Below, in pieces: positions 1,518 to 47,772 of a stretch of 64,000 nucleotides of DNA; the stretch's first letter is position 1; each line of letters starts with the position of its first letter. A program made the translations under genes and the position numbers. This DNA is from Spartinivicinus ruber. GTDB taxonomy: Bacteria; Pseudomonadota; Gammaproteobacteria; Pseudomonadales; Zooshikellaceae. Location of the stretch: contig NZ_CP048878.1 in the NCBI RefSeq assembly GCF_011009015.1, forward strand, positions 4,246,354 through 4,310,353. The letters run 5' to 3'. The notes under the pieces are model-generated. The model was not told the origin of the DNA. It ran no database searches and saw only the letters and a program-made list of their open reading frames with translations.

Positions 1518-1557
1518 TATAATGGCCCGCCAATTTTAGTCGTAATAATAAAAGGTG
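1518..1557 (+). promoter_or_regulatory. Promoter -10 and ribosome-binding site of array copy A
   Basis: A perfect TATAAT (1518-1523) is followed by the conserved leader GGCCCGCCAATTTTAG and an AAGGTG Shine-Dalgarno (1552-1557), seven bases before the ATG. No good -35 is visible. Copies A and C share one leader type, with four extra bases (AATA) and a distinct upstream block. Copies B and D-H share the other. Confidence 0.65.
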
Positions 1558-1564
1558 TTTACCT

Positions 1565-3967
1565 ATGGTAAGGAAGCTTGTTGTATTACTTAGTGCAGCT
1601 TTATTTTTCTCTTCTCAGATTACTGCCGATACAAGCCATTTAGTTGAGTACAATCCAACCTCAATCAACATTTATGAGTATTATGAAAAAAGCTATTGGC
1701 ATACTCCTTTACTCTCAGACAGACCAGGCACTTGTAAAAACATTGAAAACCTTTTTAATGGGTCAATGAAAAGTATTATTATTACACAAAAAAACGATAA
1801 TTATTCTTATATAACAAGAACTCTCACTATGGGAAATCTCCTCCAAGATTATCACTCTTTTGAGATCTATAACAAAAAAGACTTGTATAGTATTTTTTCT
1901 AAAAAATTTCAACTAGATAAACCAGGAATTGAGTACAACAAAAAATGTTCAGGAGATATCCTTGAAGTTCAAAAAAACTCAGGCAAGTCGTATTATTCCG
2001 ATTTTAATGCAGATGGTTTAGATGATCTACTATATATACCTAATCATAGCTCATTTAATAGAAAACCCTTTATTTTCTACGGAACAAAATTAAATAATAT
2101 AGAACTAAGAAAAACACCAACTGGACCCAGTTTTAATTCTGTTGGACATCAAACTAATGAGGTTGCCAAGAAAAAATACAAAGGCCCCACAGTACTTGAT
2201 ATTTCCTATTTAATATCTGACTGGTCCAACGCCAGCATCACCACCCAAGACCGCAACAAAGACGGCCGTGACGATCTATTAATCACCCGCCCCGGTGCCC
2301 CCGATTTAATTGCCTTTGCTGCTGAAGACGGCAGTTTCCCTAAAGCCGAAGTCGACACCGGCATTGGTAAATACAACGGCCCTTCCTTGTATAAAAGCCG
2401 CTTCTGTAACCGCGCCTTGTTAACCCAACACCCAGACGAAAACCCATCAACGGTATTATTTGATGATATCTGTCGAACCGCTTATGTGAGCCCACCCGCC
2501 ACGGGCACAACAGAAGTCACCGCATTAACCCCTGGTCCTGACAATACCGCCTTTTGCCCTAAATTAGCATCGGTTCAAACCAATCAAACCGAGCTACTAA
2601 AAGAACTGGGCCAAGCCAATACTAAATTTAAAACTATTATGGGAAGCCTGCCTCACGATACCCAACTGATGACGTATGCGACTACGCGGGAACAGGCTTT
2701 TAATGATTTATTAGCGGCTGAGCAAGCCGAAGCGGCCGTACGTAAAACGGTGTTATCTCAACGACGGACTATTGGCCAGCTGGAATTGGATGTGGAAGAT
2801 TGCGCCTTATTAGACACGGATTGTAATACAGCACAACATCAACTCAATGCCGCCCAACAAGCCTTAACTCAGTTATTAACTGAATTAGATGCCGCTGTCG
2901 AAGCCCGGCTAGTTAAACAAAAACGCTATGACCAAGCCTATGATGCCTATGGCGAAGCCCTGGATAATTACTTAACGGTGGATACGGAGTTAGCTGCGTT
3001 AATTGAAGAGTTTAAAGCTCTGCAAGATAAGGAGTTAGCGCTTTATCGAGAATTTGCGGGCTTAGAAGGCGCTACCGCGCAAATTCACTATCAATGGGAT
3101 TGGGCTGAGCAGGTGAATCGTTATCAAGCTTTAAACCAATCATTAAAAATGCAATGGCAACCCTTGCCAGTAACTGGCGCGAAAATCCTTGCCGAATTGC
3201 AGGAAAAACCTGAAACCCCACTCGGCGATAAAGCCATTACCCTACCCGCTGTCTTGTATACCAGCATTGATGACCAAGCGGCTAATGTAAAAATTAATGG
3301 TTATGAAACCACATTAATGCCCAAGGGCGATACCGTCATTACCAGCACCTTACGTAAGGGGCCATCTAATACTATTAATCTACCCAGTAAAATCAATGGG
3401 ACTATTGGCCTGAGCTTAGCCGGCTATTGCCCATTTGCGCCATCAGCCAATCAACCCCAGCCGGTAGAAAACCTAGCCGCTCACTTAACCCCCCACATTC
3501 AGTATGAATACGAAGAACAAATTAAACGAGGCTATACCGCGAAATATAAACTCGATACCTTCGTCAAAACCATTGTTCGCACCAAGAAAAAGAAAAAATG
3601 GTTTAAAAAGAAGAAAAAAACCTATATCGAACGCAAAGTGATTACCAAAGATTGGTTCAATATCCAATTCGACGCCAGCAGTGGTGAATACGCCTACTCC
3701 CCTGCTGAACAGGATAAAATTACCCGTGAAGTAAAATCGGATTTAGTCCGCCGAGTCAATACCGCCATTGGTGCCCTATATGCGGATAACAGCCAGTGCC
3801 AAGCAAATAAAGATTGCAGCTATGGCTATTGGTTAGGTCAATTAACCGGCAACAATGACGACACCAAAGCTATCCAACAATTTAAACAGGGGAATTCCAA
3901 ATGGGTGGAAGAAGTCGTATATGGGATTCGCTACCGGCCTAAGACCGGTTGGGTGGGGTTTAGATAA
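1565..3967 (+). CDS. Array copy A: secreted variable-N / constant-C protein, class 1
   Basis: 800 residues, family not recognised. The signal peptide spans about 1-21 (MVRKLVVLLSAALFFSSQITA). Residues ~22-228 are a variable domain with two cysteines (GTCKN, NKKCSGD) and an FG-GAP-type calcium loop DFNADGLDD at ~147. From DRNKDGRDD (~229, a second DxNxDGxxD loop) to the end the protein is nearly identical to the other copies. The constant part holds a three-Cys segment (SRFC, FDDIC, AAFC-type), ~230 residues of Ala/Leu/Gln-rich helices with a Cys pair near the turn (EDCALLDTDC), a beta-rich part (LSLAGYCPFAP), and a basic cluster KKKKKWFKKKKK around 674-686. The last Cys pair is QCQANKDC. A secreted or envelope-exposed adhesin or effector is possible. 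The ATG is fixed by the Shine-Dalgarno and by the identical start in all copies. The VapC-type gene converges on its 3' end. Confidence 0.85.
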   Translation: MVRKLVVLLSAALFFSSQITADTSHLVEYNPTSINIYEYYEKSYWHTPLLSDRPGTCKNIENLFNGSMKSIIITQKNDNYSYITRTLTMGNLLQDYHSFEIYNKKDLYSIFSKKFQLDKPGIEYNKKCSGDILEVQKNSGKSYYSDFNADGLDDLLYIPNHSSFNRKPFIFYGTKLNNIELRKTPTGPSFNSVGHQTNEVAKKKYKGPTVLDISYLISDWSNASITTQDRNKDGRDDLLITRPGAPDLIAFAAEDGSFPKAEVDTGIGKYNGPSLYKSRFCNRALLTQHPDENPSTVLFDDICRTAYVSPPATGTTEVTALTPGPDNTAFCPKLASVQTNQTELLKELGQANTKFKTIMGSLPHDTQLMTYATTREQAFNDLLAAEQAEAAVRKTVLSQRRTIGQLELDVEDCALLDTDCNTAQHQLNAAQQALTQLLTELDAAVEARLVKQKRYDQAYDAYGEALDNYLTVDTELAALIEEFKALQDKELALYREFAGLEGATAQIHYQWDWAEQVNRYQALNQSLKMQWQPLPVTGAKILAELQEKPETPLGDKAITLPAVLYTSIDDQAANVKINGYETTLMPKGDTVITSTLRKGPSNTINLPSKINGTIGLSLAGYCPFAPSANQPQPVENLAAHLTPHIQYEYEEQIKRGYTAKYKLDTFVKTIVRTKKKKKWFKKKKKTYIERKVITKDWFNIQFDASSGEYAYSPAEQDKITREVKSDLVRRVNTAIGALYADNSQCQANKDCSYGYWLGQLTGNNDDTKAIQQFKQGNSKWVEEVVYGIRYRPKTGWVGFR

Positions 3968-4023
3968 TTTTTTTAATGCTATAACTAGTCTTGCAGTAGC
4001 AGACTACCCCCCTCATTCTACCC

Positions 4024-4114
4024 TTCTCCCCCCACTGGGGGAGAAAAATGCTAAGATTTTAACCCATACCATACACCTTTTACTAAACAGTCCCCTCTAC
4101 CTCAGGGTGAGGGG
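4024..4114. repeat. Two intergenic hairpins between convergent genes
   Basis: Hairpin 1 is TTCTCCCC/GGGGAGAA (4024-4045). Hairpin 2 is CCCCTC-ACC/GGT-GAGGGG (4092-4114) with one bulged T. They lie between copy A and the convergent toxin gene and could end transcription from both sides, although neither has a clear T tract. The same pair recurs after copy F. Confidence 0.55.
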
Positions 4115-4128
4115 CTTACAAAACAAAC

Positions 4129-4536
4129 CTATACCGGCGTAATTAAACTCACGGTAGGAAAGTAAGTTGTAAATCGCCCCTTATCTCTGGAAATTAGCGA
4201 ATAGCCTTTAACTGCTGCATGTGCTCCAATAAAAAAATCAGGTAATACATTACTTTTATTGCCACCTTTGCGACGATATTGTAGAAAAGCTTTACCAGCT
4301 AAAAACAACGCCTCGCGAGGAATTTCCAGCATTTCAAATTGGCAGTGGCTGATAAACTCCTCGTATTCTTCAATTTTATTAAAACCAATGGACACTTCCG
4401 CATAAACAGTTGAGTTAATTGCCAATGTATAGTGTTCATCTAATTTTTCTAAGGTGCTTGCTGACCACTCATACCAATCAGAGTCTGGTTTGGCTAAATC
4501 AAGTAAAATATTGCTATCAACTAAAGCAACCGACAT
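4129..4536 (-). CDS. VapC-like PIN-domain toxin (RNase), copy 1
   Basis: 135 residues, the usual VapC size. Acidic PIN residues are visible: D7 in LVDSNILLDL, E47 in VYAEVSIGF, D100 in LPDFFIGAHA and D118 in SRDKGRF. These would bind Mg/Mn in a tRNA- or mRNA-cleaving site. The ATG shares one base with the antitoxin stop (TAATG), so translation is coupled and the antitoxin is made first. The pair forms a type II toxin-antitoxin operon inside the duplicated block. The protein is identical to the second copy at 18252-18659, which suggests recent duplication or selection for function. The RNA target cannot be read from sequence. Confidence 0.88.
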   Translation of the reverse strand: MSVALVDSNILLDLAKPDSDWYEWSASTLEKLDEHYTLAINSTVYAEVSIGFNKIEEYEEFISHCQFEMLEIPREALFLAGKAFLQYRRKGGNKSNVLPDFFIGAHAAVKGYSLISRDKGRFTTYFPTVSLITPV

Positions 4537-4763
4537 TAATTATCGCCTCTCGTCAGTGCCATAATTTCATCAGTTGACATCATGACACTAGCTACTTTAT
4601 GGGCTGTTCGAAAGCGGCTTTTCTTAGTCGCTGGCTTAATCACTTCTATATAAATGCGACCATCCGGGCTTTCAATGAACTCGATTTCAGTGTCAGCCGT
4701 AATGCCTTTTTTGTCTCGAATGGCTTGGGGAATAGTGACTTGCCCCTTAGTGGTGACTTTCAT
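4536..4763 (-). CDS. VapB-like AbrB/SpoVT-fold antitoxin, copy 1
   Basis: 75 residues from ATG at 4763. This start is chosen because AGGAG lies seven bases upstream and the protein then opens with MKVTTKGQVTIPQAIRDKKG, the usual beginning of swapped-hairpin AbrB DNA-binding domains. A longer frame to 4823 would add 20 residues across the likely operator and has no ribosome-binding site. The C-terminal half (KSRFRTAHKVASVMMSTDEI) should wrap the toxin. The operon is probably self-repressed through the inverted repeat just upstream. Confidence 0.87.
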   Translation of the reverse strand: MKVTTKGQVTIPQAIRDKKGITADTEIEFIESPDGRIYIEVIKPATKKSRFRTAHKVASVMMSTDEIMALTRGDN

Positions 4764-4776
4764 GTGCTGCTCCTGG

Positions 4777-4804
4777 GTATTACTCATACTGGTAAGAGTA
4801 ATAC
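4777..4804. promoter_or_regulatory. Inverted repeat, likely vapBC operator (copy 1)
   Basis: GTATTACTC (4777-4785) and GAGTAATAC (4796-4804) are perfect 9-bp inverted repeats separated by 10 bases, just upstream of the antitoxin Shine-Dalgarno. AbrB-type antitoxins commonly bind such repeats to repress their own operon. The operator role is inferred. Confidence 0.5.
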
Positions 4805-4945
4805 TTTTGTGTGGCCGTAGCAAGTAACTGTGGCACAGCTCTTGATATGACTAGGCTCCCTAAGATACTTAGGGTTGCTTTTTGTGGCACTGAGCCATAG
4901 AAAAAGCGACTATATCCTTGAGTAGACCTTATGAAATCCCCCTCC

Positions 4946-4968
4946 GTCCCCCTTTATCAAAGGGGGAC
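4946..4968. repeat. CCCCCTTT palindrome upstream of copy B
   Basis: GTCCCCCTTT-ATC-AAAGGGGGAC, a perfect 10-bp stem. It sits in the 370-bp gene-free stretch between vapB and copy B. The partner in the duplicate (19062-19098) has a longer perfect 17-bp stem; here three outer bases differ (CCTCCG instead of CCAGCG). Confidence 0.7.
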
Positions 4969-5129
4969 GCTGGGGAGAGTGAGGGAGCTTATGCAGTGAG
5001 TTAATCAAAAAAATAGATAAGGCAAGAATAAAAAATCAACAAAGTTACTACTCACTTTATTTTCATCCCTTTTATTCCCTATAAAATACTCAGTCAGACT
5101 TCACCCTACTCAATACAACCCAAATGTCT

Positions 5130-5166
5130 TATAATGGCCCGCCAATTTTAGTTGTAATAAAAGGTG
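5130..5166 (+). promoter_or_regulatory. Promoter -10 and ribosome-binding site of array copy B
   Basis: TATAAT at 5130-5135, 38 bases before the ATG, with AAGGTG at 5161-5166. The leader is the common type shared by copies B and D-H, including the upstream CACCCTACTCAATACAACCC block. Confidence 0.65.
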
Positions 5167-5173
5167 TTTACCT

Positions 5174-7526
5174 ATGGTAAGGAAGCTTGTTTTACTGCCT
5201 ATAGCCGTTCTCATATACTCGTTAATAAATTTATCGAAAGCACAGGACTTAACTGCAACTTTAGATACAATCAGCGTTTCATCAGACAATATTGAAAAAG
5301 AATTTACATATTATAAATTATATTCAAGTGGTGGACTCCTCAGTCCTCACTGGTGTTCTCCAAATAGCTCAACCGGAGCAGGAGTTAAATTTAAGGCAAC
5401 AGATCAAAAGTATATTTATTCATTTGGGTTTGACTTTTTCAGAATAATTAATCCTATATATTTCTACAGAGTTTCACATGAGAACAACCTAAAATTAAAG
5501 AACATGGGGAAAGGGTTCTTATCTTCAACCAAAACATGCTCAAATGATATAACAGAAATCAATAATAAACTTGAAAGGACTCTTTACGGTGATTTCAATG
5601 GAGATGGAGAGAAAGACTTTCTATTTATTCCTACACATCACTCAGTACAAGGAAAAGCTTATGTTTTCAATAGCTTTAAAGTATCAGAATTAAAACTTAA
5701 ATGGACCTTAGACCTTTTTGAAATGACTGCTTCAAATGAATTCAATGCATTCAAAGAAGTCACTCATTTATTTAATAACAAAGCTGACAAATACAATATC
5801 ACCATCCAAGACCGCAACAAAGACGGCCGCGATGACCTACTAATTACCCGCCCCGGTGCCCCAGACTTAATCGCCTTTGCTGCTGAAGATGGTAGTTTCC
5901 CTAAAGCCGAAGTGGATACCGGTGTTGGTAAATACAATGGTCCCTCGTTATATAAAAGCCGTTTTTGTAACCGTGCCTTGTTAACCCAACACCCTGATGA
6001 CAACCCATCAACCGTGTTATTTGATGATGTCTGCCGTACGGCTTATGTCAGCCCACCCGCCACGGGCACCACTGAAGTCACCGCGTTAACTCCTGACCCT
6101 GACAATGCCACCTTTTGCCCTAAATTAGCATCGGCTCAAACCAATCAAACGGAATTATTAAAAGAACTGGGCCAAGCCAATACTAAATTTAAAACTATTA
6201 TGGGAAGCCTGCCTCACGATACCCAACTGATGACGTATGCGACTACGCGGGAACAGGCTTTTAATGATTTATTAGCGGCTGAGCAAGCCGAAGCGGCGGT
6301 GCGAAAAACGGTGTTATCTCAACGGCGAGCCATTGGCCAATTGGAATTAGATGTGGAGGATTGCGCCTTATTAGGCACGGATTGTAATACGGCGCAACTT
6401 CAACTCAATGCCGCCCAACAAGCCTTAACTCAGTTATTAACCGAATTAGATGCCGCCGTCGAAGCCCGGTTAGTTAAACAACAGGTGTATGACCAAGCCT
6501 ATGATACCTATGGCGAGGCGTTAGATGCCTACTTAACTGTGGATACGGAATTAGCTGCCTTAATTGAAGCATTTAAAGCTCTGCAAGATAAGGAGTTAGC
6601 GCTTTACCGAGAATTTGCGGGCTTGGAAGGCGCCACCGCACAAATCCAATACCAATGGGATTGGGCTGAGCAGGTGAATCGTTATCAAGCTTTAAACCAA
6701 TCATTAAAAATGCAATGGCAACCCTTGCCGGTGACGGGTGCAAAAATACTGGCGGAATTGCAGGAAAAACCCGAAACCCCACTCGGCGATAAAGCCATTA
6801 CCCTACCCGCTGTCTTGTATACCAGCATTGATGATCAAGCGGCTAACGTGAAAATCAATGGCTATGAAACCGCATTAATGCCGAAAGGGGATGCAGTAAT
6901 AACCAGCACTTTACGTAAAGAACCCTCCAACCCGATCAGTTTACCCAGTAAAATTAATGGCACTGTTGGTTTGAGCTTAGCGGGTTATTGCCCGTTTGCA
7001 CCCAGTGCTAATCAACCACAACCAATAGAAAACTTAGCCGCCCATTTAACCCCCACATTCAGTATGAATACGAAGAACAAATTAAACGGGTTACACCGCG
7101 AAATATAAACTGGATACCTTTGTCAAAACCATTGTGCGCACCAAGAAAAAGAAAAAATGGTTTAAAAAGAAGAAAAAAACCTATATCGAGCGGAAAGTCA
7201 TTACCAGCGATTGGTTTAATATCCAATTCGACGCCACCAGTGGTGAATACGCCTACTCCCCTGCTGAACAGGATCAAATTACCCGTGAAGTAAAATCGGA
7301 TTTAGTCCGCCGAGTCAATACCGCCATTGGCGCCCTATATGCTGATAACAGCCAGTGCCAACAAAATAAAGATTGCAGCTATGGCTATTGGTTAGGTCAA
7401 TTAACCGGCAACAATGACGACACCAAAGCTATCCAACAATTTAAACAGGGGAATTCCAAATGGGTCGAAGAAGTCGTATATGGCATACGGTATCGACCTA
7501 AGACTGGTTGGGTGGGGTTTAGGTAG
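5174..7526 (+). pseudogene. Array copy B: class 2 variable domain, frameshifted near the C terminus
   Basis: The signal peptide (MVRKLVLLPIAVLIYSLINL) departs from the other copies after residue 5. The variable domain is class 2, closest to copy G (both share a GKAYVFNSFK phrase), with Cys in HWCSPN and KTCSND and a DFNGDGEKD loop. The constant module starts at 5810. At 7050-7054 a run of five C replaces the six C found in copies A, E and G, so the frame shifts after AAHLTP and stops at 7106-7108. The lost frame resumes as an intact 130-codon stretch to 7526. The 644-residue product would lack the lysine cluster and the last Cys pair. One added C restores a full-length protein. This could be a fresh pseudogene, a slippage switch or a sequencing error in a homopolymer. 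Confidence 0.8.
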
Positions 7527-7536
7527 TCTTTTGTAC

Positions 7537-7560
7537 AATCCCCCTTTCCAAAGGGGGATT
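7537..7560. repeat. CCCCCTTT palindrome after copy B
   Basis: AATCCCCCTTT-CC-AAAGGGGGATT, a perfect 11-bp stem 10 bases after the shared stop codon. It may act as a terminator hairpin, though no long T tract follows. The same core recurs after most array copies. Confidence 0.7.
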
Positions 7561-7663
7561 AATTGTATTAACAACAAAGTTACCACTCACTTATTTTCTG
7601 GCTAATTAATTCTACTTAAAATTACTAACAAAAACTCTCCTATTAAGTAAAAGACATTTGTCT

Positions 7664-7703
7664 TATAATGGCCCGCCAATTTTAGTCGTAATAATAAAAG
7701 GTG
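7664..7703 (+). promoter_or_regulatory. Promoter -10 and ribosome-binding site of array copy C
   Basis: TATAAT at 7664-7669 and AAGGTG at 7698-7703. The leader and about 100 bases upstream match copy A rather than the neighbouring copies. Confidence 0.65.
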
Positions 7704-7710
7704 TTTACCT

Positions 7711-10134
7711 ATGGTAAGGAAGCTTGTTGTATTACTTAGCTCTATCCTGTTTTCTTCTTCTCAAATATCAGCTAATACAGACTATAAAATTGAATTTAAA
7801 CCCTCTACATTTAACATCTATGAAGGGTATAGTAAAAACTATGGTATCCTACCTGGTATTTTTGATACAAATAAAAATCATTGCGGGAAAAGCCCCTCAT
7901 TATTTACTCGTTCATATATACAAACCATCTCTAAAGTAGATAACTTTTATTTTTCTATAGACATAAGCATAGATGCAATAGTAACAAAAGGTCACGCATT
8001 GCTTGCAGCTTATAACTCAAACACACTTTCTAATTACTCAGTATATAAAGAGCTAAACAGCAAGAATAAAGATTCATATACATATCAGTGCGATACAGAT
8101 TACTTAGTAATTAAAAAAAATTCTGGTATCACTCATTATGCTGATTTTAATGGAGACGGCTTGGGAGATGTTTTATATATAGCCAATATTGATAAACTAA
8201 AAAATAAGTCATTTATTTTTTATGGTATTAATGTAAAAAACGTGTCCTTTTATCATAAAAATGATGGACCATTTTTTTCAGCTGTTGCTTTAGTTAAAGG
8301 TACAGCTCCCAGTTTTATAATTAATACTCCAGAAAATCAAAGCAGCTTAATTCCTTATGTACGAGATATTTCCCATTTAGTATCTGACTGGACCAACGCC
8401 AACATCACCATCCAAGACCGCAACAAAGACGGTCGCGACGACCTATTAATCACCCGCCCTGGCGCACCAGATTTAATTGCTTTTGCTGCTGAAGACGGCA
8501 GTTTCCCTAAAGCCGAAGTCGACACCGGCATTGGTAAATACAACGGCCCTTCTCTATATAAAAGCCAGTTTTGTAACCGCGCCTTATTAACCCAACACCC
8601 TGATGAAAACCCATCAACAGTATTATTTGATGATATCTGTCGTACGGCTTATGTGAGCCCACCCGCCACGGGCACAACAGAAGTCACCGCATTAACCCCT
8701 GATCCTGACAATGCCGCCTTTTGCCCTAAATTAGCATCGGTTCAAACCAATCAAACCGAGCTACTAAAAGAACTGGGCCAAGCCAATACTAAATTTAAAA
8801 CTATTATGGGAAGCCTGCCTCACGATACCCAACTGATGACGTATGCGACTACGCGGGAACAGGCTTTTAATGATTTATTAGCGGCTGAGCAAGCCGAAGC
8901 GGCGGTGCAAAAAACGGTATTATCTCAGCGACGAACTATTGGCCAGTTGGAATTGGATGTGGAAGATTGTGCGTTATTAGGCACGGATTGTAATACGGCG
9001 CAAAACCAATTAACGACAGCCCAACAAGCCTTAACTCAGTTATTAACCGAATTAGATGCCGCTGTCGAAGCCCGGTTAGTTAAACAACAGGTGTATGATC
9101 AAGCCTATGATGCCTATGGCGAAGCCTTGGATAATTACTTAACGGTGGATACGGAATTAGCCGCCTTAATTGAAGCATTTAAAGCCCTGCAAGATAAGGA
9201 GTTAGCGCTTTATCGAGAATTTGCGGGCTTAGAAGGCGCTACCGCGCAAATTCACTATCAATGGGATTGGGCTGAGCAGGTCAATCGTTATAGGCAAGTC
9301 AACCAACAATTAAAAATGCAATGGCAACCCTTACCAGTGACTGGCGCGAAAATCCTCGCCGAATTGCAAGAAAAACCTGAAACCCCACTCGGCGATAAAG
9401 CCATTACGCTACCCGCTGTCTTGTATACCAGCATTGATGACCCAGCGGCTAACGTGAAAATCAATGGCTATGAAACCGCATTAATGCCGAAAGGCGATGC
9501 AGTAATAACCAGCACTTTACGTAAAGAACCCTCCAACCCGATCAGTTTACCCAGTAAAATTCATGGCACTGTTGGTTTGAGCTTGGCGGGTTATTGTCCG
9601 TTTGCACCCAGTGCCAATCAACCCCAGCCGGTAGAAAACCTAGCCGCCCATTTAACCCCACACATTCAGTATGAATACGAAGAGCAAATTAAACGGGGGT
9701 ACACCGCGAAATATAAACTCGATACCTTCGTCAAAACCATTGTCCGCACCAAGAAAAAGAAAAAATGGTTTAAAAAGAAGAAAAAAACCTATATCGAACG
9801 CAAAGTGATTACCAAAGATTGGTTCAATATCCAATTCGACGCCAGCAGTGGTGAATATGCTTATTCCCCCTCTGAACAGGATCAAATTACCCGCGAAGTG
9901 AAGTCTGATCTAGTCCACCGAGTTAATACCGCCATTGGTGCCCTATATGCCGATAACAGCCAGTGTCAAGCAAATAAAGATTGCAGCTATGGCTATTGGT
10001 TAGGTCAATTAACCGGCAACAATGACGACACCAAAGCTATCCAACAATTTAAACAGGGGAATTCCAAATGGGTGGAAGAAGTCGTATATGGGATTCGCTA
10101 CCGGCCTAAGACCGGTTGGGTGGGATTTAGGTAG
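7711..10134 (+). CDS. Array copy C: secreted variable-N / constant-C protein, divergent class 1
   Basis: 807 residues. The signal peptide ends near QISANTD. The variable domain shares only the opening (FNIYEGYSKNYG) with copies A, D and H and then diverges. It keeps two cysteines (NHCGKS, YQCDTD) and the loop DFNGDGLGD. The constant module begins at 8416 (DRNKDGRDD). Local markers differ from other copies: KSQFC, shared with F and G; VQKTVL in place of VRKTVL; NQLTTAQ, shared with D; and a YRQVNQQLK variant. This patchwork of shared markers suggests exchange between copies. The frame is intact, with CCCCACAC replacing the pure C tract. Function unknown. Confidence 0.85.
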   Translation: MVRKLVVLLSSILFSSSQISANTDYKIEFKPSTFNIYEGYSKNYGILPGIFDTNKNHCGKSPSLFTRSYIQTISKVDNFYFSIDISIDAIVTKGHALLAAYNSNTLSNYSVYKELNSKNKDSYTYQCDTDYLVIKKNSGITHYADFNGDGLGDVLYIANIDKLKNKSFIFYGINVKNVSFYHKNDGPFFSAVALVKGTAPSFIINTPENQSSLIPYVRDISHLVSDWTNANITIQDRNKDGRDDLLITRPGAPDLIAFAAEDGSFPKAEVDTGIGKYNGPSLYKSQFCNRALLTQHPDENPSTVLFDDICRTAYVSPPATGTTEVTALTPDPDNAAFCPKLASVQTNQTELLKELGQANTKFKTIMGSLPHDTQLMTYATTREQAFNDLLAAEQAEAAVQKTVLSQRRTIGQLELDVEDCALLGTDCNTAQNQLTTAQQALTQLLTELDAAVEARLVKQQVYDQAYDAYGEALDNYLTVDTELAALIEAFKALQDKELALYREFAGLEGATAQIHYQWDWAEQVNRYRQVNQQLKMQWQPLPVTGAKILAELQEKPETPLGDKAITLPAVLYTSIDDPAANVKINGYETALMPKGDAVITSTLRKEPSNPISLPSKIHGTVGLSLAGYCPFAPSANQPQPVENLAAHLTPHIQYEYEEQIKRGYTAKYKLDTFVKTIVRTKKKKKWFKKKKKTYIERKVITKDWFNIQFDASSGEYAYSPSEQDQITREVKSDLVHRVNTAIGALYADNSQCQANKDCSYGYWLGQLTGNNDDTKAIQQFKQGNSKWVEEVVYGIRYRPKTGWVGFR

Positions 10135-10140
10135 TCTTTT

Positions 10141-10182
10141 ATACAATATACAATCCCCCTTTCCAAAGGGGGATTGTATATT
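10141..10182. repeat. 20-bp perfect inverted repeat after copy C
   Basis: ACAATATACAATCCCCCTTT (10141-10160), CC, then its exact reverse complement to 10182. It is the longest version of the CCCCCTTT palindrome in the array and lies a few bases after the stop of copy C. Confidence 0.8.
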
Positions 10183-10282
10183 GTATTAACAACAAAGTTA
10201 TCGCTCACTTTGCTTTCATTGATTTTATTCCCTATGAAATACTCAGTCAAACTTCACCCTACTCAATACAACCCAAATGTCT

Positions 10283-10319
10283 TATAATGACCCGCCAATT
10301 TTAGTTGTAATAAAAGGTG
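10283..10319 (+). promoter_or_regulatory. Promoter -10 and ribosome-binding site of array copy D
   Basis: TATAAT at 10283-10288, leader GACCCGCCAATTTTAG, and AAGGTG at 10314-10319. The bases just before the ATG (TCTCC) differ slightly from the usual TACCT. Confidence 0.65.
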
Positions 10320-10326
10320 TTTCTCC

Positions 10327-12735: not shown

Positions 12736-12748
12736 TCTTTTATACAAT

Positions 12749-12766
12749 CCCCCTTTCCAAAGGGGG
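12749..12766. repeat. CCCCCTTT palindrome after copy D
   Basis: CCCCCTTT-CC-AAAGGGGG, an 8-bp perfect stem 13 bases after the stop codon. It is followed by a block (TTTAAGCTACTTTGAAAAC...) repeated after E, G and H. Confidence 0.65.
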
Positions 12767-12938
12767 AGTTATTGAATCACAATAAACAACCGAGTTGTTT
12801 AAGCTACTTTGAAAACTCAGACAAGTATGGGTAAGAATAAATAACCAATAAAGTTACCACTCACTTTATTTTCCTCCCTCCTATTCCCTATAAAATACTC
12901 AGCCAAACTTCACCCTACTCAATACAATTCAAATGTCT

Positions 12939-12975
12939 TATAATGGCCTGCCAATTTTAGTTGTAATAAAAGGTG
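12939..12975 (+). promoter_or_regulatory. Promoter -10 and ribosome-binding site of array copy E
   Basis: TATAAT at 12939-12944 and AAGGTG at 12970-12975, with the common leader (GGCCTGCCAATTTTAG variant). Confidence 0.65.
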
Positions 12976-12982
12976 TTTATCC

Positions 12983-15409: not shown

Positions 15410-15420
15410 TCTTTCATACA

Positions 15421-15443
15421 CTCCCCCTTTTCCAAAGGGGGAG
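15421..15443. repeat. CCCCCTTT palindrome after copy E
   Basis: CTCCCCCTTT-TCC-AAAGGGGGAG, a 10-bp perfect stem 11 bases after the stop codon. Confidence 0.65.
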
Positions 15444-15613
15444 TTATTGAATCACAATAAACAACCGGGTTGTTTAAGCTACTTTGAAAACTCAGACAAG
15501 TATGGGTAAGAATAAATAACCAATAAAGTTATTACTCACTTTATTTTCATCCCTCCTATTCCCTATAAAATAATCAGCCAAACTTCACCCTACTCAATAC
15601 AACCCAAATGTCT

Positions 15614-15650
15614 TATAATGACCCGCCAATTTTAGTTGTAATAAAAGGTG
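15614..15650 (+). promoter_or_regulatory. Promoter -10 and ribosome-binding site of array copy F
   Basis: TATAAT at 15614-15619 and AAGGTG at 15645-15650. The common leader has one change before the ATG (GTCTACCT). Confidence 0.65.
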
Positions 15651-15657
15651 TCTACCT

Positions 15658-18090: not shown

Positions 18091-18146
18091 TTTTTTTAAT
18101 GCTATAACTAGTCTTGCAGTAGCAGACTACCCCCCTCATTCTACCC

Positions 18147-18237
18147 TTCTCCCCCCACTGGGGGAGAAAAATGCTAAGATTTTAACCCATACCATACACC
18201 TTTTACTAAACAGTCCCCTCTACCTCAGGGTGAGGGG
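18147..18237. repeat. Two intergenic hairpins between copy F and the toxin gene
   Basis: Duplicates of the hairpins at 4024-4114: TTCTCCCC/GGGGAGAA (18147-18168) and the CCCCTC/GAGGGG stem (18215-18237). They replace the CCCCCTTT palindrome found after most other copies. Confidence 0.55.
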
Positions 18238-18251
18238 CTTACAAAACAAAC

Positions 18252-18659
18252 CTATACCGGCGTAATTAAACTCACGGTAGGAAAGTAAGTTGTAAATCGC
18301 CCCTTATCTCTGGAAATTAGCGAATAGCCTTTAACTGCTGCATGTGCTCCAATAAAAAAATCAGGTAATACATTACTTTTATTGCCACCTTTGCGACGAT
18401 ATTGTAGAAAAGCTTTACCAGCTAAAAACAACGCCTCGCGAGGAATTTCCAGCATTTCAAATTGGCAGTGGCTGATAAACTCCTCGTATTCTTCAATTTT
18501 ATTAAAACCAATGGACACTTCCGCATAAACAGTTGAGTTAATTGCCAATGTATAGTGTTCATCTAACTTTTCTAAGGTGCTTGCTGACCACTCATACCAA
18601 TCAGAGTCTGGTTTGGCTAAATCGAGTAAAATATTGCTATCAACCAAAGCAACCGACAT
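18252..18659 (-). CDS. VapC-like PIN-domain toxin (RNase), copy 2
   Basis: 135 residues, identical in protein sequence to the toxin at 4129-4536. The DNA differs only at a few silent positions, for example AAATCGAG for AAATCAAG. All four acidic PIN residues are kept, and the start codon overlaps the antitoxin stop by one base. Because both toxin genes look intact, each antitoxin should neutralise either toxin, so the two operons probably form one shared addiction system. Confidence 0.88.
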   Translation of the reverse strand: MSVALVDSNILLDLAKPDSDWYEWSASTLEKLDEHYTLAINSTVYAEVSIGFNKIEEYEEFISHCQFEMLEIPREALFLAGKAFLQYRRKGGNKSNVLPDFFIGAHAAVKGYSLISRDKGRFTTYFPTVSLITPV

Positions 18660-18886
18660 TAATTATCGCCTCTCGTCAGAGCCATAATTTCATCAGTTGA
18701 CATCACGACACTGGCTACTTTATGGGCTGTTCGAAAGCGGCTTTTCTTAGTCGCTGGCTTAATCACTTCTATATAAATACGACCATCCGGGCTCTCAATG
18801 AACTCGATTTCAGTGTCAGCCGTAATGCCTTTTTTGTCTCGAATGGCTTGGGGAATAGTGACTTGCCCCTTAGTGGTGACTTTCAT
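18659..18886 (-). CDS. VapB-like AbrB/SpoVT-fold antitoxin, copy 2
   Basis: 75 residues from ATG at 18886, with AGGAG seven bases upstream as in copy 1. In this reading it differs from copy 1 by one residue (ASVVMS instead of ASVMMS). The DNA-binding opening MKVTTKGQVTIP and the toxin-binding tail are kept. Confidence 0.87.
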   Translation of the reverse strand: MKVTTKGQVTIPQAIRDKKGITADTEIEFIESPDGRIYIEVIKPATKKSRFRTAHKVASVVMSTDEIMALTRGDN

Positions 18887-18899
18887 GTGCTGCTCCTGG

Positions 18900-18927
18900 G
18901 TATTACCCATACTGGTAAGAGTAATAC
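18900..18927. promoter_or_regulatory. Imperfect inverted repeat, likely vapBC operator (copy 2)
   Basis: GTATTACCC (18900-18908) pairs with GAGTAATAC (18919-18927) with one mismatch. The T-to-C change breaks the perfect symmetry of copy 1 and could weaken autorepression. Confidence 0.45.
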
Positions 18928-19061
18928 TTTTGTGTGGCCGTAGCAAGTAACTGTGGCACAGCTCTTGATATGACTAGGCTCCCTAAGATACTTAGGGTTG
19001 CTTTTTGTGGCACTGAGCCATAGAAAAAGCGACTATATCCTTGAGTAGACCTTATGAAATC

Positions 19062-19098
19062 CCCCAGCGTCCCCCTTTATCAAAGGGGGACGCTGGGG
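19062..19098. repeat. 17-bp perfect palindrome upstream of copy G
   Basis: CCCCAGCGTCCCCCTTT-ATC followed by the exact reverse complement. It is an extended version of the array palindrome, in the gene-free DNA between the second vapB and copy G. Confidence 0.75.
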
Positions 19099-19252
19099 AG
19101 AGTGAGGGAGCTTATGCAGTGAGTTAATCAAAAAAATAGATAAGGTAAGAATAAATAATCACCAAAGTTACTACTCACTTTATTTTCATCCCTTTTATTC
19201 CTTATAAAATACGCAGTCAAACTTCATCCTACTCAATACAACCCAAATGTCT

Positions 19253-19289
19253 TATAATGGCCTGCCAATTTTAGTTGTAATAAAAGGTG
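19253..19289 (+). promoter_or_regulatory. Promoter -10 and ribosome-binding site of array copy G
   Basis: TATAAT at 19253-19258 and AAGGTG at 19284-19289, common leader type. Confidence 0.65.
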
Positions 19290-19296
19290 TTTACCT

Positions 19297-21642
19297 ATGG
19301 TAAGGAAGCTTGTTGTATTACTTAGTTCAGTTCTATTTATCTCTACTCAAGTTACTGCTGATACAAATAATGATGTTATAAATTTTGATTTAAATAGCGC
19401 TGAAGTCAAGTTTAGCTATGCCAAAGATCATAATGAAGTCCTTTCAAATTATTGCCGTGCCAATCCATATGAAACTACAGCAGTTCAATTTAATAAAACT
19501 GATAAAAAACATGTGTATCTCTATGGAATTGTTTTCAATGCTCCATTTTTAACACCTAACTACTCCTATTTTTATAGATACACTCATCAGTCATATAAAA
19601 AAATAAATAACACACCTATATCACTTCCTACGATAAAAAATTGTCCTAATGACATATCTGAGACAAAAAGCTATCTTGAAGAAGTCTTTTATGGTGATTT
19701 CAATGGGGACAATGAACAAGACATCCTTTTTATTCCCAAGCATCATTCTATTAATGGTAAAGCTTATGTTTTCAATAGCTTTAAAATATCTGAGTTAAAT
19801 TTAAAGTTTTATTTGCCACCGAGTAAACTATTTGAGCTTGTTGATCGAGATAACTTCACATCATTGAAAGACATATCGTATTTATTTAATGGAAAAGCAT
19901 CAAGTTACAATATCACCATCCAAGACCGCAACAAAGACGGCCGTGACGATCTATTAATCACCCGCCCTGGCGCCCCCGACTTAATTGCCTTTGCCGCCCC
20001 TGATGGGAGTTTCCCTAAAGCCGAAGTCGACACCGGCATTGGTAAATACAACGGCCCTTCTCTATATAAAAGCCAGTTTTGTAACCGCGCCTTATTAACC
20101 CAACACCCTGATGAAAACCCATCAACAGTATTATTTGATGATATCTGTCGTACGGCTTATGTGAGCCCACCCGCCACGGGCACAACAGAAGTCACCGCAT
20201 TAACCCCTGATCCTGACAATGCCGCCTTTTGCCCTAAATTAGCAACGGCTCAAACCAATCAAACGGAATTATTAAAAGAACTGGGACAAGCCAACACCAA
20301 GTTTAAAACCATTATGGGTAGCCTGCCTCACGATACCCAACTGGTGGCGTATACCGATAAGCGAGAACAGGCTTTTAATGATTTATTAGCGGCTGAGCAA
20401 GCCGAAGCGGCCGTACGTAAAACCGTGTTATCCCAACGGCGAGCCATTGGCCAATTGGAATTAGATGTGGAGGATTGCGCCTTATTAGGCACGGATTGTA
20501 ATACGGCGCAACTTCAACTCAATGCCGCCCAACAAGCCTTAACTCAGTTATTAACCGAATTAGATGCCGCCGTCGAAGCCCGGTTAGTTAAACAACAGGT
20601 GTATGACCAAGCCTATGATACCTATGGCGAGGCGTTAGATGCCTACTTAACTGTGGATACGGAATTAGCTGCCTTAATTGAGGAATTTAAAGCTCTGCAA
20701 GATAAGGAGTTAGCGCTTTACCGAGAATTTGCGGGCTTGGAAGGCGCCACCGCACAAATCCAATACCAATGGGATTGGGCTGAGCAGGTGAATCGTTATC
20801 AAGCTTTAAACCAATCATTAAAAATGCAATGGCAACCCTTGCCGGTGACGGGTGCAAAAATACTGGCGGAATTGCAGGAAAAACCCGAAACCCCACTCGG
20901 CGATAAAGCCATTACCCTACCCGCTGTCTTGTATACCAGCATTGATGATCAAGCGGCTAACGTGAAAATCAATGGCTATGAAACCGCATTAATGCCGAAA
21001 GGGGATGCAGTAATAACCAGCACTTTACGTAAAGAACCCTCCAACCCGATCAGTTTACCCAGTAAAATTAATGGCACTGTTGGTTTGAGCTTAGCGGGTT
21101 ATTGCCCGTTTGCACCCAGTGCTAATCAACCACAACCAATAGAAAACTTAGCCGCCCATTTAACCCCCCACATTCAGTATGAATACGAAGAACAAATTAA
21201 ACGGGGTTACACCGCGAAATATAAACTGGATACCTTTGTCAAAACCATTGTGCGCACCAAGAAAAAGAAAAAATGGTTTAAAAAGAAGAAAAAAACCTAT
21301 ATCGAGCGGAAAGTCATTACCAGCGATTGGTTTAATATCCAATTCGACGCCACCAGTGGTGAATACGCCTACTCCCCTGCTGAACAGGATCAAATTACCC
21401 GTGAAGTAAAATCGGATTTAGTCCGCCGAGTCAATACCGCCATTGGCGCCCTATATGCTGATAACAGCCAGTGCCAACAAAATAAAGATTGCAGCTATGG
21501 CTATTGGTTAGGTCAATTAACCGGCAACAATGACGACACCAAAGCTATCCAACAATTTAAACAGGGGAATTCCAAATGGGTGGAAGAAACCGTGTATGGT
21601 ATCCGTTATCGACCCAAGACCGGTTGGGTGGGATTTAGGTAG
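19297..21642 (+). CDS. Array copy G: secreted variable-N / constant-C protein, class 2
   Basis: 781 residues, the shortest intact copy. The class 2 variable domain is closest to copy B (GKAYVFNSFKISELNLK against VFNSFKVSELKLK), with Cys in NYCRAN and KNCPND and loop DFNGDNEQD. The constant module begins at 19924 and carries AAPDGSFPK in place of AAEDGSFPK. It shares LVAYTDKREQ and KSQFC with copy F, and its 3' third resembles B and E (QPQPIENLAAHLTP, SDWFNIQFDATSG). The six-C tract at 21164-21169 is in frame, which makes G a natural template for repairing B. Near the end it reads EETVYGIRY rather than EEVVYGIRY. Confidence 0.85.
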   Translation: MVRKLVVLLSSVLFISTQVTADTNNDVINFDLNSAEVKFSYAKDHNEVLSNYCRANPYETTAVQFNKTDKKHVYLYGIVFNAPFLTPNYSYFYRYTHQSYKKINNTPISLPTIKNCPNDISETKSYLEEVFYGDFNGDNEQDILFIPKHHSINGKAYVFNSFKISELNLKFYLPPSKLFELVDRDNFTSLKDISYLFNGKASSYNITIQDRNKDGRDDLLITRPGAPDLIAFAAPDGSFPKAEVDTGIGKYNGPSLYKSQFCNRALLTQHPDENPSTVLFDDICRTAYVSPPATGTTEVTALTPDPDNAAFCPKLATAQTNQTELLKELGQANTKFKTIMGSLPHDTQLVAYTDKREQAFNDLLAAEQAEAAVRKTVLSQRRAIGQLELDVEDCALLGTDCNTAQLQLNAAQQALTQLLTELDAAVEARLVKQQVYDQAYDTYGEALDAYLTVDTELAALIEEFKALQDKELALYREFAGLEGATAQIQYQWDWAEQVNRYQALNQSLKMQWQPLPVTGAKILAELQEKPETPLGDKAITLPAVLYTSIDDQAANVKINGYETALMPKGDAVITSTLRKEPSNPISLPSKINGTVGLSLAGYCPFAPSANQPQPIENLAAHLTPHIQYEYEEQIKRGYTAKYKLDTFVKTIVRTKKKKKWFKKKKKTYIERKVITSDWFNIQFDATSGEYAYSPAEQDQITREVKSDLVRRVNTAIGALYADNSQCQQNKDCSYGYWLGQLTGNNDDTKAIQQFKQGNSKWVEETVYGIRYRPKTGWVGFR

Positions 21643-21665
21643 TGTAAAACCCTAGCCACAGCTCT

Positions 21666-21690
21666 ATTCCCCCTTTATTAAAGGGGGAAT
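21666..21690. repeat. CCCCCTTT palindrome after copy G
   Basis: ATTCCCCCTTT-ATT-AAAGGGGGAAT, an 11-bp perfect stem 23 bases after the stop codon. Confidence 0.7.
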
Positions 21691-21855
21691 AATTGCATCG
21701 TTATTACCATACAAGTCGTTTAAGCTACTTTGAAAGCTCAGACAAGTATGGGTACGAACAAACAATAAAGTTACTACTCACTTTATTTTCATCCCTTTTA
21801 TTCCCTATAAAATACGCAGCCAAACTTCACCCTACTCAATACAGCCTAAATGTCT

Positions 21856-21892
21856 TACAATGGCCCGCCAATTTTAGTTGTAATAAAAGGTG
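21856..21892 (+). promoter_or_regulatory. Promoter -10 (variant) and ribosome-binding site of array copy H
   Basis: The -10 reads TACAAT (21856-21861) where copies A-G have TATAAT, a change likely to weaken the promoter. AAGGTG lies at 21887-21892. Confidence 0.6.
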
Positions 21893-21899
21893 TTTACCT

Positions 21900-24320
21900 A
21901 TGGTAAGGAAGCTTGTTGTATTACTAAGCCTAAGTTTATTTTACTCTCAGATAACTGTTTCCGGCACAAACCACATTATTGATTATAAACCATCCAAAAT
22001 CAATATCTACGAAAAACATAAAACAAGTTATTGGCATACGCCGATTCTTGCTCCTATTTATCTAAATAATGGGTCATGTGAAAAACGTATCAATTACTTT
22101 GAATCATCTTCCAAGGTTTTCATTACCCAAAGTACTAGAAATTTCGACTATGTAATAACAACCACATCCATAGGTACAAAGAAAAACAATGTATTTAATG
22201 GATTCTATCAATTTTATATATTTGACAATCATAAATCTTATAGAAAAAATTTAAAAGAATGGAAACTACATGATATTGGGGTTAAACGAAACCAAAGATG
22301 TCGCGGCGATATTAGTGATATTAAAAAAAAACCTGGAAGAACCTATTACTCTGACTTTAACAATGATGGTTTAACAGATCTTCTCTATCTGACTAAAAAT
22401 AAAGCATTTCACCAAAAAGCTCTAATTTTTTATGGAAGAGAGTTAGACAATCTCAACTTAAAAAAACATGTCAATGGACACAGTTTCCTGACTAGTGGTC
22501 ACCTGCACAGAAAAGAAGTTGAAAAAAACAACCAAGGCCCCAAAGTTTTAGATATTTCACATTTCACAGGAGACTGGTCAAACGTCACCATTACTATCCT
22601 AGACCGCAACAAAGATGGTTTCAAAGATCTATTAATCACCCGTCCCAACGCGCCTGATTTAATTGCTTTTACTGGCTCTAATGGCTATTTTTCTAAAACA
22701 GAAGTGGATACGGGCATTGGTAAATATAATGGCCCGTCATTATATAAAAGTCGTTTTTGTAACCGCGCCTTGTTAACCCAGCACCCAGACGAAAACCCTT
22801 CAACCGTGTTATTTGATGACATCTGTCGTACGGCTTATGTCAGTCCACCAGCCACCGGCACAACAGAAGTCACGGCATTAACCCCTGCCACTGACAATGC
22901 CGCCTTTTGCCCTAAACTAACAGCCACACAAACGGAGCAAACGGAATTATTAAAAGAACTGGGACAAGCCAACACCAAGTTTAAAACCATTATGGGTAGT
23001 CTGCTTCACGATACCCAACTGATGACGTATGCGACTACGCGGGAACAGGCTTTTAATGATTTATTAGCGGCTGAGCAAGCCGAAGCGGCGGTGCGAAAAA
23101 CGGTATTATCTCAGCGACGAACTATTGGCCAGTTGGAATTGGATGTGGAAGATTGTGCGTTATTAGGCACAGATTGTAATACAGCGCAACATCAACTCAA
23201 TGCCGCCCAACAAGCCTTAACTCAGTTATTAACCGAATTAGATGCCGCCGTCGAAGCCCGGTTAGTTAAACAACAGTTGTATGACCAAGCGTTTGATGCC
23301 TATGGCGAGGCGTTAGATGCCTACTTAACCGTGGATACGGAGTTAGCTGCCTTATTTGAGGAATTTAAAGCTCTGCAAGATAAGGAGTTAGCGCTTTACC
23401 GAGAATTTGCGGGCTTGGAAGGCGCCACCGCACAAATCCAATACCAATGGGATTGGGCTGAACAGGTTAATCGTTATAAGCAATTAAACCAGCTATTAAA
23501 AATGCAATGGCAACCCTTACCAGTGACGGGTACAAAAATCCTCGCCGAATTGCAAGAAAAACCTGAAACCCCACTCGGCGATAAAGCCATTACCCTACCC
23601 GCTGTCTTGTATACCAGCATTGATGACCAAGCGGCTAATGTAAAAATTAATGGTTATGAAACCACATTAATGCCCAAGGGCGATACCGTCATTACCAGCA
23701 CCTTACGTAAGGGGCCATCTAATACTATTAATCTACCCAGTAAAATCAATGGGACTATTGGCCTGAGCTTAGCCGGCTATTGCCCGTTTGCGCCAAGTGC
23801 CAATCAACCCCAGCCGGTAGAAAACCTAGCCGCTCACTTAACCCCACACATTCAGTATGAATACGAAGAACAAATTAAACGAGGTTACACCGCGAAATAT
23901 AAGCTCGACACCTTTGTCAAAACCATTGTCCGCACCGAGAAAAAGAGGAAATGGTTTAAAAAGAAGAAAAAGACCTATATTGTGCGAAAATTTATTACCA
24001 GCGATTGGTTTAATATTCAATTCGACGCCACCAGTGGTGAGTACGCCTACTCCCCTGCTGAACAGGATCAAATTACCCGTGAAGTAAAATCGGATTTAGT
24101 CCGCCGAGTCAATACTGCCATTGGTGCCTTATATGCGGATAACAGCCAGTGCCAGCAAAATAAAGATTGCAGCTATGGCTATTGGTTAGGTCAATTAACC
24201 GGCAACAATGACGACACCAAAGCCATCCAACAATTTAAACAAGGCAATTCCAAATGGGTCGAAGAAGTCGTATATGGGATTCGCTATCGACCTAAGACCG
24301 GTTGGGTGGGGTTTAGGTAG
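21900..24320 (+). CDS. Array copy H: secreted variable-N / constant-C protein, class 1, most divergent constant region
   Basis: 806 residues from ATG at 21900. The open frame extends upstream to 21693, but that would run through the promoter and leader, and the MVRKL start is shared by all copies. The variable domain is class 1 (SKINIYEKHKTSYWHTPILA; GSCEKR and NQRCRGD cysteines; loop DFNNDGLTD). The first ~35 residues of the constant module are more diverged than in any other copy (DRNKDGFKDLLITRPNAPD, TGSNGYFSKTEVD). Further differences are SLLHDTQ for SLPHDTQ, a changed basic cluster (RTEKKRKWFKKKKK) and IVRKFITSDWF. As the last intact member, H may be less exposed to homogenisation. Confidence 0.85.
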   Translation: MVRKLVVLLSLSLFYSQITVSGTNHIIDYKPSKINIYEKHKTSYWHTPILAPIYLNNGSCEKRINYFESSSKVFITQSTRNFDYVITTTSIGTKKNNVFNGFYQFYIFDNHKSYRKNLKEWKLHDIGVKRNQRCRGDISDIKKKPGRTYYSDFNNDGLTDLLYLTKNKAFHQKALIFYGRELDNLNLKKHVNGHSFLTSGHLHRKEVEKNNQGPKVLDISHFTGDWSNVTITILDRNKDGFKDLLITRPNAPDLIAFTGSNGYFSKTEVDTGIGKYNGPSLYKSRFCNRALLTQHPDENPSTVLFDDICRTAYVSPPATGTTEVTALTPATDNAAFCPKLTATQTEQTELLKELGQANTKFKTIMGSLLHDTQLMTYATTREQAFNDLLAAEQAEAAVRKTVLSQRRTIGQLELDVEDCALLGTDCNTAQHQLNAAQQALTQLLTELDAAVEARLVKQQLYDQAFDAYGEALDAYLTVDTELAALFEEFKALQDKELALYREFAGLEGATAQIQYQWDWAEQVNRYKQLNQLLKMQWQPLPVTGTKILAELQEKPETPLGDKAITLPAVLYTSIDDQAANVKINGYETTLMPKGDTVITSTLRKGPSNTINLPSKINGTIGLSLAGYCPFAPSANQPQPVENLAAHLTPHIQYEYEEQIKRGYTAKYKLDTFVKTIVRTEKKRKWFKKKKKTYIVRKFITSDWFNIQFDATSGEYAYSPAEQDQITREVKSDLVRRVNTAIGALYADNSQCQQNKDCSYGYWLGQLTGNNDDTKAIQQFKQGNSKWVEEVVYGIRYRPKTGWVGFR

Positions 24321-24345
24321 TGTAAAACCCTAGCCACAGCTCTAT

Positions 24346-24366
24346 TCCCCCTTTATTAAAGGGGGA
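24346..24366. repeat. CCCCCTTT palindrome after copy H
   Basis: TCCCCCTTT-ATT-AAAGGGGGA, a 9-bp perfect stem 25 bases after the stop codon, matching the element after copy G. Confidence 0.65.
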
Positions 24367-24535
24367 TTAATTGCATCCTTGTTAGCAAACGAGTTGTTTA
24401 AGCTACTTTTAAAAACTTAGACGAGTGCAGATACGAACAAATAATTAACAAAGTTATTACTCACTTCCGATTTACTCCTTAACTACTTATTACACTCAGT
24501 TTAAAATAACCCTATCCATTAGCCATCATATGTAT

Positions 24536-24679: not shown

Positions 24680-24737
24680 TGTATAAAGTTTTTAATTGAG
24701 CTAGTAAAACAAGAATTAATTAGAAGGATTTTATGGA

Positions 24738-47769: not shown

Positions 47770-47772
47770 TAA

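Follow-up and report, generated by a model that had tools for sequence, protein, structure and literature searches.

The analysed window, a stretch of 64,000 nucleotides of Spartinivicinus ruber (contig NZ_CP048878.1, positions 4,246,354 to 4,310,353), contains an array of eight head-to-tail genes, all on the forward (+) strand and all encoding proteins that start with MVRKL, as the initial annotation of this DNA had described. Each protein joins a variable N-terminal domain, here termed the head, to a nearly constant C-terminal part, the body. Comparison with a related array in a sister species indicates that heads have been exchanged, in one case recently and between species, and that bodies have been homogenised within each genome. 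On balance, the array probably encodes a repertoire of secreted proteins in which a common stalk carries recognition heads, with head exchange and body homogenisation as the sources of diversity; each head would recognise something different outside the cell. The array would offer a clear natural example of recombination shuffling whole recognition-like domains and gene conversion keeping the scaffold alike, at one locus, in a sister-species comparison and with one apparent loss. No published description of such an array was found under Spartinivicinus, Zooshikella or related concepts in titles and the starts of abstracts, with subscription papers outside the scope.

Eight genes with variable heads and a constant body

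Seven of the eight copies are intact, with 781 to 810 codons that divide into a head of 209 to 238 residues (signal peptide included) and a body of exactly 572 residues. These are copy 1 (positions 1565 to 3967, a predicted secreted protein of 800 amino acids with head 1-228 and body 229-800), copy 3 (7711 to 10134; 807 amino acids, head 1-235), copy 4 (10327 to 12735; 802 amino acids, head 1-230), copy 5 (12983 to 15409; 808 amino acids, head 1-236), copy 6 (15658 to 18090; 810 amino acids, head 1-238), copy 7 (19297 to 21642; 781 amino acids, head 1-209), and copy 8 (21900 to 24320; head 1-234). The open reading frame (ORF) of copy 8 was listed from a TTG at 21693, and its 806 amino acids are counted from the MVRKL start at 21900. 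Each head ends at a DRNKDG loop, and the body starts from that loop on. The remaining gene, copy 2 (5174 to 7108; 644 amino acids, head 1-212), loses its frame within the body, leaving 432 body residues, with the final ~147 codons of the body displaced into another frame. The range of 781 to 810 codons given initially thus stands for seven copies and fails for copy 2 (644 codons), and the view that every copy appears expressible does not survive the broken frame. The break may be a local assembly error; it was rejected as proof of decay because only one of the eight copies is affected and such an error is possible.

Among the 28 pairs formed by the eight copies, head identity ranges from 18.7 to 53.7% (median, 26.8%) and body identity from 87.5 to 98.6% (median, 93.7%), which agrees with the variable domain of ~200 residues and the nearly identical C-terminal module of ~570 residues first described. 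The first body counts included the out-of-frame tail of copy 2; without that copy, body identity is 90.9 to 98.6% (median, 94.8%; 21 pairs), and its omission left the conclusions the same.

Five Zooshikellaceae genomes were compared, including S. ruber, its sister Spartinivicinus species (G001), G002, and G004. Headed copies are present in 3/5 of them: eight in S. ruber, seven at the same place in G001, and four on three contigs in G004. The array is real. According to its genome report (PMC7484904), S. ruber S2-4-1H (6,687,090 bases; first contig, 6,361,125) was assembled from Illumina and PacBio reads, so the assembly artefact that the initial annotation had considered is unlikely. Nor is the arrangement due to chance, as the corresponding place in a second species holds an array of seven copies. 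That the array is an artefact or a decaying duplication without function is scarcely credible: the broken copy and the apparent loss of the array in a third species (G002) would fit such a history, but the long-read assembly, the separate array in G001, and a nonsynonymous divergence (dN) of the S. ruber bodies of about a tenth of the synonymous divergence (dS; 0.038 versus 0.393) argue against it.

Signs of head exchange and body homogenisation

In the body tree, each of the two Spartinivicinus species forms one clade (100/99; 98/99 without copy 2). The head tree mixes the species, and a single clade of S. ruber heads is rejected (approximately unbiased [AU] test, p = 4.7e-116). Groups defined by the heads are rejected in the body tree for copy 4 with G001 copy 5 (p = 0.0023), for copies 5 and 6 with G001 copy 6 (p = 2e-5), and for copies 2 and 7 (p = 0.0039). 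The same two head types lie side by side in both arrays, as copies 4 and 5 of S. ruber and copies 5 and 6 of G001. This disagreement between head and body trees supports the initial proposal that the array diversifies its N-terminal domain, which is probably secreted, and keeps the body constant.

Mean body dS is 0.39 within S. ruber, 0.58 within G001, and 0.70 between them. Under a permutation of site order, which assumes that sites are exchangeable along the gene, identity runs were longer than expected (p < 0.01) in 28/28 S. ruber pairs (19/21 without copy 2) and in 11/21 G001 pairs; the longest, between the bodies of copies 6 and 7, covers 233 identical polymorphic sites over ~1.08 kb. Head dS is 0.92 to 2.07 in nine of the ten pairs computed, some of them aligned at only 35 to 39% identity, and in each pair exceeds the respective body value. 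The tenth pair, copy 4 and G001 copy 5, has heads that are 96% identical, with a dS of 0.06 compared to 0.12 to 1.39 in seven flanking genes. Between these two genes, 12/630 bases differ in the head (+60 to +690) and 168/1716 in the body (Fisher p = 1.4e-12), with 17/140 differences in the preceding leader and 5 in the first 60 coding bases. Heads are also poorer in guanine plus cytosine (GC) than bodies (31.5% versus 45.5%, means of 15 copies), a contrast that is weaker in the four G004 copies (heads, 31.6 to 34.6%; bodies, 35.9 to 43.2%). Taken together, the trees, the dS values, the identity runs, the contrast within the copy 4/G001 copy 5 pair, and the GC contents point to head exchange and body homogenisation. 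As a mechanism supported by this comparative evidence, head cassettes would pass from gene to gene and from species to species by exchange within the leader and body that flank them and are near-identical among copies, and gene conversion would keep the bodies alike inside each genome.

The head dN/dS ratios (0.18 to 0.46 in ten pairs) give no sign of gene-wide or ongoing diversifying selection. With such ratios, and with synonymous sites highly diverged in 9/10 pairs, the heads resemble long-standing lineages that recombination has reshuffled more than antigens that underwent recent hypermutation. Neither the antigenic variation raised initially nor phase switching is borne out by these values or by the array itself, where a search for simple repeats gave four short rows (best score, 38) and no long one. 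Point hypermutation of the retroelement type was rejected because the strong divergence extends to the synonymous sites of the heads and reverse transcriptase genes are lacking nearby; the two RVT_1 matches in the genome both lie >2 Mb from the array, which sets it apart from a diversity-generating retroelement, where a reverse transcriptase and a template repeat adjoin the variable gene, although no template-repeat search was made. Young tandem duplication was likewise rejected as the sole cause of body similarity, since the head type common to copies 5 and 6 and G001 copy 6 crosses species and the bodies cluster within each species. For this head type, an older exchange is an alternative explanation. 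A head type common to copy 3 and G001 copy 1 was dropped, as their identity of 35% is no better than that between copy 3 and copy 1 (39%).

Silent-cassette antigenic variation, exemplified by Borrelia vls and Neisseria pil, employs an expression site and silent cassettes. The array resembles these systems in gene conversion among copies with variable domains. It differs from them in that each copy has a leader, a start, and a signal-like sequence, and in that conversion would homogenise the body rather than scramble the head. No silent head cassettes were found elsewhere in the genome with the head profile, whose eight matches all lie in the array, although over-diverged heads could be missed.

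Calcium-loop heads, the common body, and probable export

The heads were compared as a set of 19 from three genomes (8 from the window, 7 from G001, and 4 from G004). Clustered at 40% identity, they form 13 groups, four of which occur in the S. ruber genome. The FG-GAP family (Pfam PF01839) matches 19/19 heads at E ≤ 0.1, and the near-invariant head columns mostly correspond to two calcium loops. The calcium-loop motif of FG-GAP proteins is DxNxDGxxD, and loops of this kind are present in every head, as they are in FG-GAP repeat proteins and the alpha chains of integrins. Taken by itself, the copy 4 head scores 25.7 bits, compared to a curated whole-sequence cut-off of 22.1, with no single stretch passing by itself; full-length copies fall just under the cut-off (best, 21.8). 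A model of this head with the first ~50 body residues is a confident beta domain (mean predicted local distance difference test score [pLDDT], 85.3; predicted template modelling score [pTM], 0.84), and its best fold match in the PDB is UmbA4 (E = 8e-3; probability, 0.97). The head profile also matches UmbA4, a glycan-binding protein, at an E value of 3.8e-6 summed over five blades; the next matches are secretagogin (E = 0.097) and integrin alpha-V (E = 0.17). Because the UmbA4 match is local to the loops, and each head has two conserved calcium loops against the five to seven blades of a closed propeller, we claim for the heads FG-GAP kinship, as judged from their sequences, and neither a complete propeller nor a lectin. 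The same distinction applies to FG-GAP proteins and integrin alpha chains, as a full propeller is not demonstrated by two conserved loops. Outside these loops, the head gave no other convincing match, and a search of a viral structure library with the head returned nothing at E ≤ 0.001. The head (~210 mature residues with the first ~50 body residues) would thus fold as one beta domain with two FG-GAP-type calcium loops, as modelled for one head. Since most of the head outside these loops varies, the ligands, perhaps surface glycans, probably differ from head to head.

Heads of this kind might instead belong to enzymes or carbohydrate-binding proteins that address different polysaccharides for nutrient acquisition. 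The FG-GAP loops, a marginal match of CBM_X2 to 1/19 heads (E = 0.042), the presence of a type II secretion system, and the origin of this marine organism in Spartina sediment are compatible with such a role. No catalytic family was over the cut-off, however (Pfam, eight copies; NCBIfam, two copies), and the heads vary whereas the body does not, so nutrient acquisition is a very unlikely function.

The full-length copy 3 model shows a helical hairpin (coiled coil) within the body, at about residues 339 to 505. The body cysteines 288, 310, 338, 427, and 629 are invariant in 19/19 headed proteins. A well-characterised family for the body, which would have undone the initial annotation's proposal, was sought across sequence and structure libraries and none was found. 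Body or full-length searches of Pfam, NCBIfam, PADLOC, and PHROGs yielded no relative of known function, PDB sequences gave nothing below an E value of 0.05, and no body relative was detected in plasmids and phages (tblastn, copy 3 body) or in viral contigs. The best 50 of 747 matches in the full-length structure search are mostly coiled-coil proteins, none of these at E ≤ 0.001. A connection with an exotoxin family was weighed and rejected: the passage naming Spartinivicinus in the respective paper (PMC12632345) concerns a Fic-domain protein of S. marinus, and nothing there ties that protein to the array. The constant body, comprising the hairpin and a cysteine-bearing, lysine-rich C-terminal region, may serve as a common stalk, anchor, or assembly part.

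The closest functional parallel to a repertoire of recognition heads may be found in the umbrella toxin lectins UmbA1-6 of Streptomyces coelicolor, in which, as described in the source (PMC13274773), one cell places several diversified recognition domains on shared particles. UmbA4 resembles the array heads in its repeated FG-GAP-type calcium loops and is their best match by sequence and by fold. UmbA differs in having an N-terminal trypsin-like domain, none of which was found in the eight array proteins (Pfam, E ≤ 1), whereas the array places its head N-terminally on a body without known family, and the whole-head fold match is poor. No Pfam family corresponding by name to UmbB or UmbC was matched by the seven downstream neighbours; no genome-wide search was made. 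Because the trypsin-like domain was not found, the array is not a member of the umbrella group, and the parallel is a functional one. If the heads bind different glycans, this would suggest that the bet-hedging logic of Streptomyces umbrella particles arose separately in marine Gram-negative bacteria, and the heads would constitute a ready-made set of interchangeable binding domains.

A conserved leader of ~140 nucleotides directly precedes each of the eight array genes on the + strand (1425-1564, 5034-5173, 7571-7710, 10187-10326, 12843-12982, 15518-15657, 19157-19296, and 21760-21899). All eight leaders carry AAAGGTG before the start, and seven contain TATAAT, which is TACAAT in copy 8. A promoter consensus scan of positions 900 to 20800 detected 53 promoter-like sites where 50.9 were expected, hence no excess. 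The initial description of a leader and promoter for each copy is accordingly confirmed for the leader, and an own promoter for each copy is likely. Whole-genome counts of the leader in four genomes are eight in S. ruber, where it occurs before the array genes only, five in G001, one in G002, and zero in G004. Since one dedicated leader is common to all eight copies, they are probably co-expressed as a set and not switched singly.

Signal-peptide-like starts are present in the eight window copies, and a hydropathy scan of 10 headed proteins (5 from the window) detected a second, marginal hydrophobic segment in one. A Sec signal peptide would carry each protein into the periplasm, from which it would probably leave the cell via the type II secretion system whose genes (gspC-G, J, and K; 44977-54893) lie in the same window. 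None of the eight window copies has a cysteine among its first 30 residues, and hence none has a lipobox there, although two G001 copies have an early IIAC. These observations bear on whether the proteins form a variable surface coat against phages, predators, or a host, with heads that change to escape recognition. The strong head divergence, the AT-rich heads, and the cross-species exchange are as expected of surface antigens, but all eight copies share the same leader, silent cassettes and long simple repeats were not found, a lipobox is lacking in the window copies, and the calcium loops are kept in 19/19 heads. We regard a surface coat as distinctly unlikely.

Several observations weigh against a repertoire of secreted recognition heads. 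Structure prediction, one of the checks initially proposed, succeeded for the copy 4 head but for no other head, and confidence in the full-length copy 3 model is low (mean pLDDT, 53), with most of the C-terminal 300 residues below 50. The copy 4 head aligns to UmbA4 with a template modelling score of only 0.30 over the query and a root mean square deviation of 13.5, and in the profile comparison with UmbA4 no single blade is significant (best single-stretch E = 3.7). The identity-run test depends on its exchangeability assumption, the head dN/dS ratios lack the signature of diversifying selection, and one copy in eight is broken. In G001, 2/7 copies lack the leader. Lastly, the start of copy 5 falls below the hydropathy threshold used, and the G004 protein Z1 has no signal-like start in the frame taken.

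Distribution and neighbouring genes

A single-copy, headless paralogue of the body, par660 (27871 to 29853, + strand; 660 amino acids), is 26% identical to residues 302-742 of copy 3 and is present in 5/5 family genomes. Among 293 genomes of the order, the full-length profile matches eight, namely the five family genomes and three others that match in the FG-GAP stretch only (E = 4e-4 to 1e-3). Across 369 genomes of the class, the S. ruber genome itself was the sole match. The par660 profile matches the same five family genomes alone among the 293. Because two to four candidates were scored per genome, remote relatives may have escaped these searches. The search of bacterial genomes that had been suggested at the outset thus found relatives in Zooshikellaceae only, and the body appears to be restricted to this family within what was searched.

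G002, a draft assembly of 160 contigs without the array, retains a leader relic between the upstream gene and par660 (L033 8623-8896). Because the relic has no intact start and no + strand open frame of at least 25 amino acids before par660, G002 probably lost an array. In this genome par660 is split across two contigs (L033 9079-10317 and G002:C48), and the frame listed for it runs into unrelated sequence at its end.

The gene that follows the array encodes a mini-RHS protein (24738 to 25775, + strand; 345 amino acids) that has a signal-like start and weak RHS/YD repeats and whose C-terminal part matches nothing in Pfam; it occupies the same place in G001 and is possibly a small secreted effector. 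The surrounding block (about 24471-26570) is 92 to 99% identical to G001, compared to 73 to 89% for the next ~1.35 kb, and is apparently a second recent between-species exchange, adjoining the array. Downstream lie g328 (26209 to 27195, + strand), a protein without known family, and g186 (27285 to 27845, + strand), a small protein adjoining par660 and found at the same place in G001. As g328 occurs in 3/3 genomes with headed copies and 0/2 without (a small sample), it is a candidate partner of the headed proteins.

These neighbours invite comparison with RHS and contact-dependent inhibition (CDI) polymorphic toxins, which have a constant N-terminal carrier, a variable C-terminal toxin, and an immunity gene after each toxin. 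Common to both are a constant and a variable part exchanged by recombination, and a mini-RHS gene adjoins the array. In the array, the order is reversed (variable N-terminal, constant C-terminal part), the genes are full length and in tandem, and no immunity gene or toxin domain was seen. By analogy, the array might be regarded as a mirror image of polymorphic toxins. It could accordingly be an interbacterial weapon with interchangeable aiming heads, in which the head docks on a competitor, the body or a partner (g328, par660, or the mini-RHS protein) does the harm, and one immunity function serves all copies. The modelled coiled coil of the body, the mini-RHS gene next after the array, the distribution of g328, and the top sequence and fold match of the head to UmbA4, a lectin of an antibacterial particle, would suit a weapon. 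In contrast, no toxin, pore, or defence family was matched above weak scores by the body or the partners, and the gaps between copies offer no candidate immunity gene: four of the five gaps without a PIN-domain gene are 192 to 257 bp long, mostly leader, with no closed ORF of >37 amino acids, and the fifth, 602 bp after copy 2, is largely the displaced copy 2 tail, with no other closed ORF of >63 amino acids. A weapon is an unlikely explanation.

Returning to the repertoire of recognition heads on a common stalk, a more specific and tentative possibility is that the locus represents an undescribed Gram-negative recognition system, in which a lineage-specific secreted body bears exchangeable N-terminal calcium-loop heads aimed at different glycans of competitors or hosts. 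It would be a cell-wide bet-hedging repertoire like the umbrella lectins on an unrelated scaffold, with g328 as a dedicated partner and par660 as a headless core subunit.

The two remaining gaps, each 1206 bp long and 98.4% identical to one another, carry a pair of genes on the reverse (-) strand for a PIN-domain protein (4129-4536) and a MazE-type antitoxin (4536-4823) between copies 1 and 2 (4129 to 4823), with a second copy of the pair between copies 6 and 7 (18252 to 18946). G001 has the pair once, inside its array, and placed differently relative to the head types. A role for the pair in stabilising mobile segments of the array, or in marking them, is possible. In the gaps between copies lie palindromes of the CCCCCTTT/AAAGGGGG kind, at 4939-4975, 7534-7560, 10152-10178, 12741-12767, 19062-19098, 21665-21691, and 24343-24369. 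A similar palindrome lies beside the relic leader in G002, and these elements are possible dispersed repeats that could promote recombination.
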